From contig JASBVF010000020.1 in the NCBI GenBank assembly GCA_030147525.1, positions 124,001 through 188,000 of the forward strand: 64,000 nucleotides of DNA, written 5' to 3'. The DNA is from Bacteroidota bacterium (lineage in GTDB: Bacteria; Bacteroidota; Bacteroidia; Chitinophagales; Saprospiraceae). This document shows positions 4,342 through 8,295 of this stretch, one piece after another (within the stretch, counting starts at the first letter, position 1; each line of letters opens with the position of its first letter). The notes beneath the pieces were generated by a model. That model was not told the DNA's origin. It ran no database searches and saw nothing but the letters and a program-made list of their open reading frames with translations. The position numbers and the translations under genes are program-made.

Positions 4342-5547
4342 CTACTTCAGCACCTCATCGATGCTCACACTCCTCGAATGCTCCGTGTGCTTGAAATTCT
4401 TGTTTGGGTTTCCCATTTTCATCAAACCTTTCAACTGCCGAAGGATGAAAGACGGCATGGCCAACACAGCGCTCCATACAGCTTTCGGCGCCCGACTGAG
4501 GTACAGCGTCCAGAAAATGGTTCCCACAAAAAGCAGGATGGAAATAGCCAAAGCCAGCGAAACCCAGGGTTGAAAAAACAAGCCCAAACCGGCCAGCGCC
4601 GCCGCCGTGAACAACATGATAAACATCGGCGGTGCAATGGTGACGAGGCCAAACAACCACTGGTTCCAGCTAAAATTCAACAGGCCCCGGCGCAGGATGC
4701 CCAGCGAATTGGGGATATTTTGAAAATAAGAAAACAGCCAGCGGCTCCGCTGCGTCTCGACCGCACCGGCTGAAGTCACTTTTTCGTCATAACAAATGGC
4801 ATCCCAGGCATAAGCGATTATAGTGTTTTTTCGAAGCAAAAAATTCTGTAAAATTTTATCCTCCTGGAGCATCTTTTTCCATTGGTGCTTGCCCTGTTCA
4901 ATCTCCGGGCTGGCAAGGTAAGCCTTGTAAAGCTCCGCCTCCACGGCCATACCGCTGCCGGAAATCACCGCCGAGGAACCGTTCCGATACGGCGCCACCC
5001 GGTCGATGTAATTTTTGTAAAACTCTCCCAGGGCATCGGCGCAGGCCATGACGGTATCCAGATTTTTTGCCGTCCGCTGTCCCTGGATGGCTGAGAAACC
5101 GGCGTTTGCGTATCGGTTTATTTCAGTTAAAAAATCGGGATGCGCCAGGTTGTCCGCATCAAAAACGGTAATGTACTCATGGGGCCTGACAAAGTTTTCG
5201 ATACCGTGGATGATAGATTTGGCTTTCAGATTCAGGGGTTCTTCCGGACGAAGGAGGGTCAGTTTTTCATGTTCGATATCCCAGGATGAAACATCGCAGG
5301 CATCGGCAACGAGGTAAATATGATGATTTGAATGACGCTGACGCAGGAGTGAATGGACGAGGCCTTTGGCAATGTCCACGTTTTTATAGGCAGTGATGAT
5401 GTTGCCAAAGTCGAAACTCCTTGACTCGGCCGGCGCTTTTAGTTTTTCTTTTGAAAAAAGTGAGAAGAAAACGTTGAGCGTTGGCAAAACCAAAAAGAAA
5501 ATCAGAATGCCCGATACCGTGATGTAGAGGTAACTCAGAATTTCCAT
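4342..5547 (-). CDS. Family 2 glycosyltransferase, processive membrane type
   Basis: A 401-residue GT2 enzyme with an N-terminal membrane helix (about 5-30), a cytoplasmic GT-A domain and a C-terminal cluster of membrane helices (about 290-355). Motifs of cellulose/hyaluronan-synthase-like enzymes are visible: 'FDADN' (129-133) for metal and nucleotide-sugar binding, 'QED' (228-230) for the catalytic base and 'QRSRW' (266-270), the QxxRW motif of processive transferases. It probably polymerises or extends the backbone of the polysaccharide made by this cluster. It is followed 92 bp downstream by the SGNH hydrolase gene. The sugar donor cannot be read from the sequence. Confidence 0.88.
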   Translation of the reverse strand: MEILSYLYITVSGILIFFLVLPTLNVFFSLFSKEKLKAPAESRSFDFGNIITAYKNVDIAKGLVHSLLRQRHSNHHIYLVADACDVSSWDIEHEKLTLLRPEEPLNLKAKSIIHGIENFVRPHEYITVFDADNLAHPDFLTEINRYANAGFSAIQGQRTAKNLDTVMACADALGEFYKNYIDRVAPYRNGSSAVISGSGMAVEAELYKAYLASPEIEQGKHQWKKMLQEDKILQNFLLRKNTIIAYAWDAICYDEKVTSAGAVETQRSRWLFSYFQNIPNSLGILRRGLLNFSWNQWLFGLVTIAPPMFIMLFTAAALAGLGLFFQPWVSLALAISILLFVGTIFWTLYLSRAPKAVWSAVLAMPSFILRQLKGLMKMGNPNKNFKHTEHSRSVSIDEVLK

Positions 5548-5567
5548 TGTGTTTGTTCAGTGTTTGG

Positions 5568-5575
5568 CAAAGGTA
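5568..5575 (-). promoter_or_regulatory. Bacteroidota -7 promoter element for the GT2 gene
   Basis: Read on the minus strand this is TACCTTTG, matching the Bacteroidota sigma-70 -7 consensus TAnnTTTG, 20 bases before the ATG of the glycosyltransferase gene. No convincing -33 TTG was found at the usual distance. Confidence 0.55.
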
Positions 5576-5641
5576 TGAATTGTGTTGTTGTTGAGATTTT
5601 ACAAAGTTTCCAAATATTGTAAAACCTGACAGCAAAGAAAA

Positions 5642-6235
5642 AGTAAGGGGGGTAGAGCCTGGAATTATATCTTATCGCCTGACAAGCAGGCAAGTTTGAT
5701 TAAAAGTAGGGGGGGTAGAGCAAGGTCTTTTCTTTGTTCTTCAGGGTTTTCGGCATAGACTTCCCGGCTTTGCAGCACGGGAAAGTCCAGCGAAAAAAGT
5801 AAGGGGGGTAGAGTCTGGTCATATCTTGTGGCTATTCGGGGTCAAAAAATCTAACATCTTATTTCGTCAATCTGTAATCAGGTAGCCTTTTAGGATGTAA
5901 GATTTCTGATTGACGAATTTTGATCTTTGATTTTAAAAGTAAGGGGGGTAGAGTCTGGTCATATCTTTGGCTATTCAGGGTCAATAAAATCAAAAATCTT
6001 ACTTCGTCAATCTTCAATCAGGTAGCCTTTTAGGACGAAAGATTACTGATTGACGGGTTTTGACCTTTGATTTTAAAAGTAAGGGGGGTAGAGTCTGGTC
6101 ATATCTTTGGCTATTCAGGGTCAATAAAAAATCAAAAATCTTACTTCGTTAATCTTCAATCAGGTAGTCAAAGCAGATTTTTGATGCTTGATTAACGAGT
6201 TTTGATCTTTGATTTTTAAAGTAAGGGGGGTAGAG
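5642..6235. repeat. Modular array: six G-rich tags alternating with hairpins
   Basis: A 16-base tag AGTAAGGGGGGTAGAG occurs at 5642, 5798, 5938, 6078 and 6220, with a one-base variant at 5705. Intervals are 63, 93, 140, 140 and 142 bases. Each interval contains an inverted repeat: GCCTG/CAGGC in the first, GACTTCCCG/CGGGAAAGTC in the second, and in the last three a longer hairpin with base stem AAAATCAAA/TTTGATTTT (clear in the fourth) and upper stem CGTCAATC/GATTGACG. The last three intervals are homologous over their whole length. The array fills the gap between two glycosyltransferase genes and enters the 3' end of the upstream one. It has no CRISPR-like spacer variation or adjacent cas genes. 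Function unknown. Confidence 0.85.
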
Positions 6236-7131
6236 TCTGGTCGTATCTTTTTGCTGGAAAAATTCCAGTGTATTGATTTGAAAAATGCTTTGAAATTCGC
6301 CCACTCACCTTTTAGCAGGTACATCAGCGAATTTTTCGGGATGGTGAATAAAAACAGGAACACACAAAACATTCTCCACTGTATCACCGACCGGTTGCGC
6401 CGCATGAACAACAAGCGATTCCGGTTAAGATAGTAGGTTTTCAATGTGCTGATTTTACCTACGGTGTAACTTTCTTTGTGGTACACTTTAGCCTGGGGTT
6501 CTACCCAGATTTCATAGCCCGCCCGCCGGATTTGCTCGCACCAGTCAAGCTCCTCGTAGTAGAGGAAGAAATCTTCGGGCATCAAACCCACTTTTTCTAT
6601 TACTTCTCTGGTGACCATCATTGCTGCGCCATGGGCGTAGGCTGTTGGTTTTGCTGTTTGAAACTGTCCGTTGTCAATCTCTCTCTCACCGAGAGTGCGG
6701 TTCCGGGCAGTCAGCGGATGGACATGAGTCGTACCGAGGTACTGAATCATATCCGGCTCACTGCCCGGTCTTGCGTTATGGTAACAAATTTTCGGACTTG
6801 CGATGCCGATTCCGGAATTAGTGCTGAACAGCTTCAGGAGTGATTCTATCGCTCCATTCGTAAGCTCAGCGTCGTTGTTGAGGAAGAACAAGAAGCCGCC
6901 TTTACTTGCCTTGATGCCAAGGTTATTGCCACCGGCGAAGCCAAGGTTTTTTTCGCTTCGAATAAATACGCATTCCGGGTAGTGTTTTCTCAGGTAGCTT
7001 TCCGGGTTCTCAGACGAAGCGTTATCCACAACAATCACCTCAATGTCTTTGTAATCCACCTTGCGGATGGATTCCAGCAATTCACAGGTTACATCCAGCG
7101 AATTGTAATTGATCGTGATGATAGAAACCAT
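6160..7131 (-). CDS. Family 2 glycosyltransferase (rhamnosyltransferase-like)
   Basis: A 323-residue GT2 enzyme with a classical N terminus 'MVSIITINYNSLD', the donor-binding 'VVDNASS' (35-40), 'NLGFAGGNN' (62-70) and the DXD-equivalent 'NNDAE' (85-89), then 'YYEELDWCEQIRRAGY' near the acceptor site. This set is typical of single-addition rhamnosyl- or other glycosyltransferases of O-antigen and exopolysaccharide synthesis. The ATG at 7131 begins the family-conserved sequence; a start at 7179 would add unmatched residues. About the last 28 codons (after 'NFSSKK') are encoded inside the G-rich repeat array and stop within a repeat hairpin, so the natural C terminus has probably been replaced. 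Confidence 0.88.
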   Translation of the reverse strand: MVSIITINYNSLDVTCELLESIRKVDYKDIEVIVVDNASSENPESYLRKHYPECVFIRSEKNLGFAGGNNLGIKASKGGFLFFLNNDAELTNGAIESLLKLFSTNSGIGIASPKICYHNARPGSEPDMIQYLGTTHVHPLTARNRTLGEREIDNGQFQTAKPTAYAHGAAMMVTREVIEKVGLMPEDFFLYYEELDWCEQIRRAGYEIWVEPQAKVYHKESYTVGKISTLKTYYLNRNRLLFMRRNRSVIQWRMFCVFLFLFTIPKNSLMYLLKGEWANFKAFFKSIHWNFSSKKIRPDSTPLTLKIKDQNSLIKHQKSALTT

Positions 7132-7197
7132 AAATTGTAGTTGGAACAGCGTTTCAGATTCAGGCATGCAGTGTTGCATTCATCCTCCAAAATCCAT

Positions 7198-8295
7198 TTA
7201 TACGTTTTCGTCTTGAATAATTGCAAATGGTGTTTTAAGTATAATTTTCATGTCGTACCAGAAGGAGTGTTTATCTGCATAAGTTACGTCAAGACCAATA
7301 CGCTCCTCGCTGGACATATCGTTTTTGCCTCTTTTGGTCACTTGCCAAAGTCCGGTCAGGCCAGCCGGTGCAAGGAAGCGTTTTGCCCAAATATCTCTTG
7401 TCAACAACTCCGCTTCATATACAGGGAGTGGCCTGTTACCTACGATTGACATGTCACCTTTCAAAATATTAAATAACTGAGGAAGTTCATCGATGCTTGT
7501 TTTCCTGATGATTCTTCCGACTTTGGTTACCCGCGGGTCATTGTTGAATTTTTTGAAAAGACCTCCGCCGGGGCTGTTGTTGTATTGATTCAAGTGATTG
7601 AGGTCTTTGAGTCTGTTATCGGCGTCACGATACATAGATCGGAACTTAAGGAAATCAAAAACCCTGTAGCCTGTACCTACCCGCTTTGACCGATAGATGA
7701 CAGGACCGGGGGATTCCAGTTTTATCAAAAGAGCAACCAGCAAAAGAAGCGGGCTGATCATGATTAAAACAAAGGATGCAAACAGCATGTCGAAGGCCCG
7801 CTTGGTAGGAGAGAAAAATGTTGGGAACTTCTCAATTTCATTGTTATGACTTGCCTCTATCTCCTGTTTGAAAGCTGTGAGGAATTCGATGCGTTGATGT
7901 AAAACTTCCCATTGAACAGGTACATCGTAATAGTCGTCGAAACCAAGGTGCAGGGCCTGAAGCTTATGGTTGAGCCCATCCCGGTTCATGGCGATCAAAG
8001 GAAGGTATTTGAGTTGCGGGTGATTTTTCAGGTTACTGAGCAGCAGAAACTTTTCCTCCTCCAAAAAAGCAAATTCACAAATTATTGCTGAGGGAAGGCT
8101 TGAGATATCTTGTTTTTCAATCGCTGCCTCCAACCATCGGAAAGCGACGAAGGAGTTTTCAAATTCCTTAATTCTAAATCCTTGCTCAATCCCTGAGTAG
8201 TTGATGAGGCATTCACTGAATGAGCCGTCAAAGCCCAAAACAATGATCTCATCACGTTCCATTGATCCCGAAAATAAAGGTAAAGCTGGGTTCAT
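7198..8295 (-). CDS. Pseudo-receiver / polyprenyl-phosphate sugar transferase fusion
   Basis: A 365-residue two-domain protein. Residues about 165-365 are a bacterial sugar transferase (WbaP/PssY-like), which moves a sugar-1-phosphate onto undecaprenyl phosphate and so starts polysaccharide repeat synthesis: 'KRAFD' (165-169), membrane helix (170-192), 'KFRSM' (217-221), 'DELPQL' (269-274), 'VGNRPLP' and 'GLTGLWQV'. Residues about 16-145 look like a response-regulator receiver fold, but the phosphoacceptor Asp appears to be Glu74 ('IICEF') and the conserved Lys after 'GFDDYYD' is Val. It therefore probably senses by protein contact rather than phosphorylation. A receiver-only regulator is encoded just upstream. 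A second possible start lies at 8262. Confidence 0.88.
   Translation of the reverse strand: MNPALPLFSGSMERDEIIVLGFDGSFSECLINYSGIEQGFRIKEFENSFVAFRWLEAAIEKQDISSLPSAIICEFAFLEEEKFLLLSNLKNHPQLKYLPLIAMNRDGLNHKLQALHLGFDDYYDVPVQWEVLHQRIEFLTAFKQEIEASHNNEIEKFPTFFSPTKRAFDMLFASFVLIMISPLLLLVALLIKLESPGPVIYRSKRVGTGYRVFDFLKFRSMYRDADNRLKDLNHLNQYNNSPGGGLFKKFNNDPRVTKVGRIIRKTSIDELPQLFNILKGDMSIVGNRPLPVYEAELLTRDIWAKRFLAPAGLTGLWQVTKRGKNDMSSEERIGLDVTYADKHSFWYDMKIILKTPFAIIQDENV

Follow-up and report, generated by a model that had tools for sequence, protein, structure and literature searches.

A conserved tag alternating with variable hairpin modules at one glycosyltransferase gene junction in a genus of the Saprospiraceae

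BOX and REP-type repeats are modular units with hairpins that lie between genes and are dispersed over the genome, the REP/BIME units being palindromic. In the R64 shufflon a repeat joins a constant coding part to variable C-terminal ends, and the system comprises inverted recombination sites and a site-specific recombinase. The dRS3 repeat of neisserial intergenic mosaic elements is described as a 20-bp inverted repeat, ATTCCC(N)8GGGAAT, with about 200 to 700 copies per genome (PMC9778887). Rho-dependent terminators, according to another report, contain a 78-nt stretch in which C exceeds G and a C occurs every 11–13 nt, with a hairpin or pause within 150 nt (PMC6407284).

The locus described here lies in a 64-kb stretch, hereafter the window, of the 7.08-Mb genome of an uncultured Saprospiraceae bacterium. 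The 16-mer AGTAAGGGGGGTAGAG matched six times in the window when up to three mismatches were allowed, always on the + strand, and only the copy starting at 5705 contained a mismatch (Table 1). The spacings between the six tags were 63, 93, 140, 140 and 142 bases, leaving intervals of 47, 77, 124, 124 and 126 bases when the tags are excluded. Shuffled sequence gave 0.23 matches on average and 2 at most, and none of 100 shuffles gave six. A hairpin was predicted on the sense (minus) strand in all five intervals, with z scores of −4.38, −3.65, −3.72, −3.98 and −2.24 from position 6219 down to 5658, the weakest fold being that of the shortest interval (5658–5704). Pattern search and folding confirmed the six tags, their spacings and the hairpin in each interval as given in the original prediction, which had been made from the sequence of this window. 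An ungapped comparison also bore out its claim that, in + strand order, the first two intervals are unrelated to the last three; the latter are diverged copies of each other, agreeing with the reference at 84% and 61%.

On the sense strand the tag reads CCAG-N-CTCTACCCCCC, mostly followed by NNACTTTT. Two features had not been noted in the original prediction, the length of the conserved block and the coding nature of one copy. The block is longer than 16 bases, and CCAG stands at its 5′ side. The coding tag encodes P-D-S-T-P-L-T near the C-terminus of a glycosyltransferase, GT_B, whose frame passes from the tag into the first hairpin module and then stops. The five remaining tags occupy the gap between GT_B and the next gene, GT_A. 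In minus-strand order the genes are a response regulator, a sugar transferase, GT_B, the array, GT_A, a GDSL-type esterase/lipase and an MBOAT acyltransferase, a neighborhood that, judged from these annotations, looks like a cluster for an acylated polysaccharide. A Pfam scan of 10 neighboring proteins revealed no DNA-binding regulator, no recombinase and no cas genes; the response regulator matched a receiver domain only.

Table 1. Positions in the window of the tags, the modules and the flanking genes, listed in sense order
Feature	Position	Strand	Evidence
GT_B, family 2 glycosyltransferase	6160..7179	-	ORF; Pfam Glycos_transf_2 4.6e-23; orthologs
Tag 1, coding (...CCA GAC TCT ACC CCC CTT ACT)	6220..6240	-	tag match
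Module H1, long hairpin rich in AT, with TGACCCTGAATAGCCAAAGATATGA; the GT_B frame runs into its first part	6094..6219	-	
Tag 2, noncoding	6078..6098	-	tag match
Module H2, diverged copy of H1	5954..6077	-	
Tag 3, noncoding	5938..5958	-	tag match
Module H3, diverged copy of H2	5814..5937	-	
Tag 4, noncoding	5798..5818	-	tag match
Module X, GC hairpin GGACTTTCCCG...CGGGAAGTCT, no relation to H	5721..5797	-	sense z -3.98
Tag 5, most diverged copy of the array (CCTTGCTCTACCCCCCCTAC)	5705..5725	-	tag match
Module Y, short hairpin TTGCCTGCTTGTCAGGCGA	5658..5704	-	sense z -2.24
Tag 6, noncoding, final one before GT_A	5642..5662	-	tag match
End hairpin between the last tag and the promoter-like site of GT_A	5595..5626	-	segment z -0.89, not significant here
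TAnnTTTG promoter-like box (TACCTTTG) before GT_A	5568..5575	-	alignment
GT_A, family 2 glycosyltransferase, next gene, same direction	4342..5547	-	Pfam Glyco_tranf_2_3 5e-32; orthologs

A protein-coding repeat was rejected: the + strand stays open through tags one and two, yet the later spacings are not multiples of three. An antisense promoter was considered for the + strand sequence TATCTTTG, which adjoins two of the six tags here, but inspection by eye gave no such rule in other arrays.

With up to two mismatches allowed, the source genome contained the six tags and no match away from the array, while the reversed pattern used as a control gave four. Among 100 relatives searched with one mismatch, 13 genomes contained tag matches. 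Nine of these belong to this genus, and the tags fetched from them sit between the GT_B and GT_A orthologs (in G012, at two contig ends). The four genomes outside the genus had five scattered matches in total, against 13 for the reversed control pattern, and none of the five lay beside homologs of the window genes tested. In 14 genomes of the genus (G000 to G013), all 37 copies of the exact 15-base core CCAGNCTCTACCCCC were at the GT_B–GT_A junction, and the one-mismatch core matches away from it numbered 13, against 28 for the reversed control. A set of 298 family genomes, six of them from this genus, contained the exact 16-base core in five, all of this genus and all at this locus. No tag was seen at 26 junctions of family loci outside the genus (from the 27 loci L094–L120).

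Nine of the 14 genus genomes have an array: G000, G001, G004, G007, G008, G010, G011 and G012, together with a partial array in G009. A single coding copy is all that is present in G002, G003 and G005 have a related GT_B ending with the string CCCCCTTACTTTT and no array, and the locus was not recovered from G006 and G013. The G009 contig ends near the array, where one degenerate tag departs from the core at both ends. In the remaining stretch of this locus (L089, end of C110) an AT-rich hairpin is found next to the degenerate tag; GT_B was not found at E 1e-60 in the genome, whose listed completeness is 100%. A tree of 17 GT_A proteins, whose root is unsure and is shown as an open fork, placed the nine array genomes in one group (91/97; 94% of bootstrap trees), so that one origin is enough.

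A wider scan of contigs yielded 50 matching stretches, nine at this locus (seven species) and 41 with a single exact match. Chance would be expected, by our own arithmetic, to give single matches of that order or more. Just one of the 41 stretches (L032) had a second tag, which was degenerate, thousands of bases away and on the other strand; gene context was viewed for L042. A dispersed repeat was also rejected as a candidate for the spacers. The 124-base H spacer had 14 matches in its own genome at E ≤ 1, three of them in the array. The 11 outside the array were short or weak (best E 4e-4 over 32 bases) and are not dispersed copies of module H.

From these results we conclude that the tag array is not a dispersed mobile element. 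The mobile module suggested in the original prediction did not survive, as six of six tags in the source genome (up to two mismatches) and 37 of 37 exact cores in 14 genomes were at one junction. The check proposed there, a search of the Saprospiraceae for tags with varied hairpins at many loci, found such tags in relatives, but at one orthologous locus. Of the two findings named there as counting against it, absence of the tag outside the locus holds within the source genome, while the tag recurs at the orthologous locus in other species; recent copying holds for the three 140-base intervals of this genome, which are copies of one module, but does not hold for the tag when species are compared. 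The observation itself is confirmed, and conservation of the tag between species at a single locus gives it better support than the sequence of the window alone.

The seven complete rows contained 6, 7, 5, 4, 4, 4 and 4 tags with the coding copy included, or 3–6 noncoding tags per row, and G012 had at least six tags over two contigs. Tag-to-tag spacings across arrays ranged from 45 to 330. Spacer types were common to several species, and their order differed between species. The type L spacer opens with the hairpin CTCAAG-GCAA-CTTGAG, which in G008 is CTCAGG-GCGA-CTTGAG, such that the loop keeps the GNRA form (n = 3). The S spacers form a small hairpin with two stems, inner and outer. The H spacers form a long one that is rich in AT and has a recognizable tail. 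G007, G008 and G011 share one arrangement, in which L comes first, H or a short spacer second and S last. Units have also expanded: the source genome carries three copies of the 140-base H unit, G001 has three of a two-tag unit of about 133 bases, and in G012 an 84-base unit has multiplied. The tails of GT_B vary with the module that adjoins them. The constant tag with interchangeable folded modules that had been proposed for the window was found again in seven further genomes of the genus, with different spacers and order, and in part in an eighth (G009). A long fold-back spacer was seen in the third interval of G010 (L088), where 314 bases built of nested palindromes such as CCCCCGACTTCAGTCGGGGG fold back over most of their length (predicted −179 kcal/mol, z about −21).

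The noncoding 16-base core was compared in tags 2, 3 and 4 of G007, G008 and G011. Two of 144 pairwise sites differed, and both differences were one lost C in G011. Fourfold-degenerate sites of GT_A differed by 0.52, 0.51 and 0.40 in the same genomes, the L and S spacers by 0.17–0.39 at aligned sites, and the middle and end spacers by 0.25–0.53 with long gaps. At the rate of the L and S spacers some tens of tag differences would be expected (our own arithmetic, with pairs that are not independent). Core position 5 was T in tags 2 and 3 and A in tag 4 in all three species, indicating that the copies were not simply overwritten by one another. Given the contrast of 2 differences in 144 with the fourfold (40–52%) and L and S spacer (17–39%) divergence, selection probably acts on the tag, either as DNA or as RNA, and its constancy does not merely reflect recent copying. 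Part of this constraint may be regional, in that the L and S spacers were also less diverged than the fourfold sites.

We then gathered 32 noncoding tags with up to three errors to the core; the first tag of each row was skipped except in G012b, and the degenerate G009 tag was excluded. In this set, in which copies within a genome are not independent, 12 of the 16 core columns were invariant, ten consecutive columns forming CTCTACCCCC. For the coding copy, five of six tag codons were identical in eight genomes (G010 having been removed by a start-of-frame filter), compared with 29 of 164 other invariant degenerate codons, a contrast for which we calculated about one chance in a thousand by our own arithmetic. 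In G007 the coding copy departs from the core that all three noncoding copies retain; in G010 the reading CCAAG occurs in the coding copy and also in one of the noncoding ones. At most, these comparisons hint at a constraint tied more to the array than to the end of the protein.

Folding was examined on both strands in 39 spacer segments. A z score of −2 or lower was reached by 17 of the 39 in sense and by 11 of the 39 in antisense, leaving 22, including all four of G011, without a significant sense fold. Five of seven H modules had the lower energy in antisense, and five of seven had the better z in sense. The S hairpins were significant in sense only in G001 (z −2.1 to −2.5, versus 0 to −0.9 in antisense); elsewhere they were at about −2 on both strands (G008) or below −2 on neither (G004, G007 and G011). 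With S stems placed by hand from predicted folds, the inner stem was kept in six hairpins via G-C, G-U or A-U at one pair and U-G, U-A or C-G at another, and its G-U pairs fall on the sense strand. In the three H copies, two-sided changes kept two of 29 predicted pairs, whereas five of 29 were each lost from a single copy; the covariation term (+0.34) was slightly unfavorable. Spacer covariation, as judged from these alignments, is modest.

Folds of whole arrays separated the tag from the spacers. The predicted probability of being unpaired in sense was 0.68–0.81 for the tag versus 0.33–0.55 for the rest, and the tag was higher in all eight arrays. The antisense values were 0.33–0.43 for the tag versus 0.27–0.43 for the rest, the tag being higher in five of eight arrays by at most 0.09. 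Only on the sense strand, then, are the tags predicted to be less paired than the sequence around them. Composition is partly responsible, since low G alone makes a C-rich tag look unpaired.

The C/G ratio was 1.34–2.12 over the eight arrays versus 0.92–1.15 in the GT_A coding sequence of seven genomes. By our rough version of the published rut criterion (C/G > 1.5 and a C every 11–13 bases) the array was above the GT_A coding sequence in four of seven genomes and below it in three. The arrays end with a hairpin-forming segment that was significant in five of eight, and a promoter-like TAnnTTTG box precedes GT_A in eight of eight arrays (partial G009, in which no box was seen by eye, is excluded). 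The box is not at that place in G002, where a TAnnTTTG string is found elsewhere in the gap, at the stop codon, and it occurs nowhere in the G003 and G005 gaps. From the end hairpin and box of the arrays, and from the missing box at the G002 site and in G003 and G005, we read the sequences as suggesting that GT_A has its own transcription start in array genomes, with the array as a boundary in between.

GT_B and GT_A are also adjacent in 29 loci without arrays, 26 in other genera and three in this genus. The gap between them is at most 56 bases in 20 of the 29; seven gaps are at least 145 bases long, and four of these seven have a fold with z of −4.3 or lower. Each of the long gaps in the family outgroups L096, L097, L102 and L103 contains one strong fold (z −4.3 to −9.4), the L102 fold being built of repeated words such as GACTTCGGTCTTC.

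A structured RNA, which was among the possibilities named in the original prediction, is our preferred reading. Specifically, we consider the array to be a repeated cis element that acts at the transcript level as a boundary between GT_B and GT_A, a reading to which we assign a probability of roughly 0.4. The sense RNA would display a row of single-stranded, C-rich tags, with stem-loops keeping the tags apart. A factor that recognizes C-rich single-stranded RNA would bind the tags, Rho being the obvious general candidate and a sequence-selective RNA-binding protein the more specific one. The bound factor would promote transcript ending or 3′-end processing after GT_B, and the hairpins would serve as pause or protection points. 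Expression of GT_A and the genes after it would be set by their own TAnnTTTG promoter, and the boundary would grow stronger with the number of tags. Since Rho does not depend on a fixed sequence of 16 bases, the invariance of the tag asks for something more specific. Because of this, and because the rut criterion favored the array in only four of seven genomes, a specific RNA-binding factor is as likely as Rho. RbpB, another candidate considered for the tag-binding role, is reported to prefer AU-rich sequence, which gives it no support.

The clear unit expansions in G012, G001 and the source genome are also what would be expected if the array were a by-product of recombination, in which the 3′ end of GT_B was duplicated in tandem by chance, the tag seeds unequal crossing over, and a functionless tag looks conserved because only matching tags expand. 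The contig breaks at the array (G012) or close to it (G009), the GT_B tails that differ by adjacent module and the 22 of 39 spacer segments without a significant sense fold all fit such a history. However, orthologous tags, known as such by their position-specific bases and by modules L and S, are near-identical at 40–52% fourfold divergence; moreover, each of the seven complete rows has kept 4–7 tags, and some hairpin pairs covary, which makes a functionless by-product rather unlikely. The tags could instead be bound as double-stranded DNA, upstream of the GT_A promoter, by a regulator of their own, the hairpins being incidental. Operators of this type would explain why noncoding tags are conserved as exact sequence, why several copies lie upstream of the promoter-like box and, for a local regulator, why the 14 genus genomes have no other exact site. 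We nevertheless regard them as unlikely: the spacings of 45 to 330 showed no helical phase by eye, the tag is not palindromic and all listed copies have the same direction, no DNA-binding regulator was among the 10 neighboring proteins scanned, and operators do not need the pair-preserving changes seen in some spacer hairpins.

Two further explanations start from the position of the first tag in GT_B. A tag in the 3′ end of a gene with copies that are direct repeats resembles the core of an attachment site for an integrating element, the array then being a residue of repeated insertions and losses. In the arrays as read, which are interrupted between the two G012 contigs and at the G009 break, the largest inter-tag interval is 330 bases and leaves no room for an integrase gene; several species have modules L and S in common, and viral contigs contained 18 single tag matches and none with two tags. 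Attachment sites are consequently very improbable. Hardly more than a formal alternative is shufflon-like switching, in which the tags would let GT_B swap its last residues with downstream modules. The first tag is read in the GT_B frame and is followed by residues that vary between species, as such switching would have it, but in the GT_B frame the downstream modules give irregular tails ending 8 to 97 residues from the tag, the direct orientation of all tags precludes inversion, and the 10 neighboring proteins scanned include no recombinase.

A transcript boundary remains our preferred reading, at less than even odds, with recombination and operators as serious rivals. A short coding stretch seems to have taken on a noncoding role as well and to have multiplied with variable hairpins at one place, and the sequences compared point to a control element that would act only at the GT_B–GT_A junction. 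More tentatively, and with less than even odds, the array may represent a single-locus class of modular RNA element, in which the end of a coding region turned into a site for sequence-specific RNA binding. Copied downstream together with exchangeable hairpins, it would have formed a multi-site boundary whose strength evolves by gain and loss of units. The divergent relatives, including two tagless genomes and one with a single copy, constitute a series for the origin and role of the array. If the boundary reading is true, this would be a sequence-specific signal for transcript ending or processing in Bacteroidota; to our knowledge, few such signals have been mapped in Bacteroidota outside model species.

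A scan for clustered 14-mers found no array in the window besides the tag array. The same scan of 800 kb of other sequence from this genome (40 stretches) gave 11 clusters; two were read as sequence and proved to be arrays of a different palindromic repeat, and the other nine were judged by spacing and open frame. This different modular array family is found in the source genome at L155:15395-15606 (C54), at L149:779-997 (C49) and on C59 near 92.8 kb. Its units of about 41 bases carry CGCCTGTNNGANTTNCGCACNCCNGT in alternation with a palindrome, CGGGAATATTCCCG or TTGGAATATTCCAA, whose arms differ between two loci; a pattern search gave six matches on three contigs.

Rfam 15 returned four microRNA matches over positions 5000–7200, with E values of 0.3–0.67 and all far below gathering scores, and a literature search by word co-occurrence found no Saprospiraceae paper on intergenic or tandem repeats with hairpins. 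The RfaH ops element, GGCGGTAGCGT, matches the + strand GGGGGTAGAGT at nine of 11 places, but the strand is opposite to the genes and there is one locus only. Features of membership in CRISPR or REP/BIME were lacking, in agreement with the original prediction. A CRISPR array was rejected on account of the interval lengths of 47–126, three spacers that are copies of one another, hairpins in all five and the lack of cas genes in the 10 neighbors. The array shares modular hairpin units with BOX, REP and BIME elements and differs in being at a single locus. It differs from the R64 shufflon in that all tags have one direction, the downstream frames are irregular and no recombinase is found in the 10 neighbors. 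A Rho-dependent terminator is similar in presenting a C-rich, G-poor stretch, predicted to be unpaired here, followed by hairpins after the end of a gene; unlike such a terminator, the array has a tag that is fixed in sequence, and its rut-like score is not consistently raised. The neisserial intergenic mosaic elements (dRS3 + RS) have the closest layout, with a short constant repeat and 50–150 base modules of several families, just as the constant tag alternates with different modules of 50–150 bases (spacings 45 to 330, a few outside). Membership was rejected in the absence of both the inverted repeat and dispersal over the genome. In contrast to dRS3, the tag CCAGNCTCTACCCCCC is not palindromic and is confined to a single locus in each genome, where the first of its copies is part of a gene.
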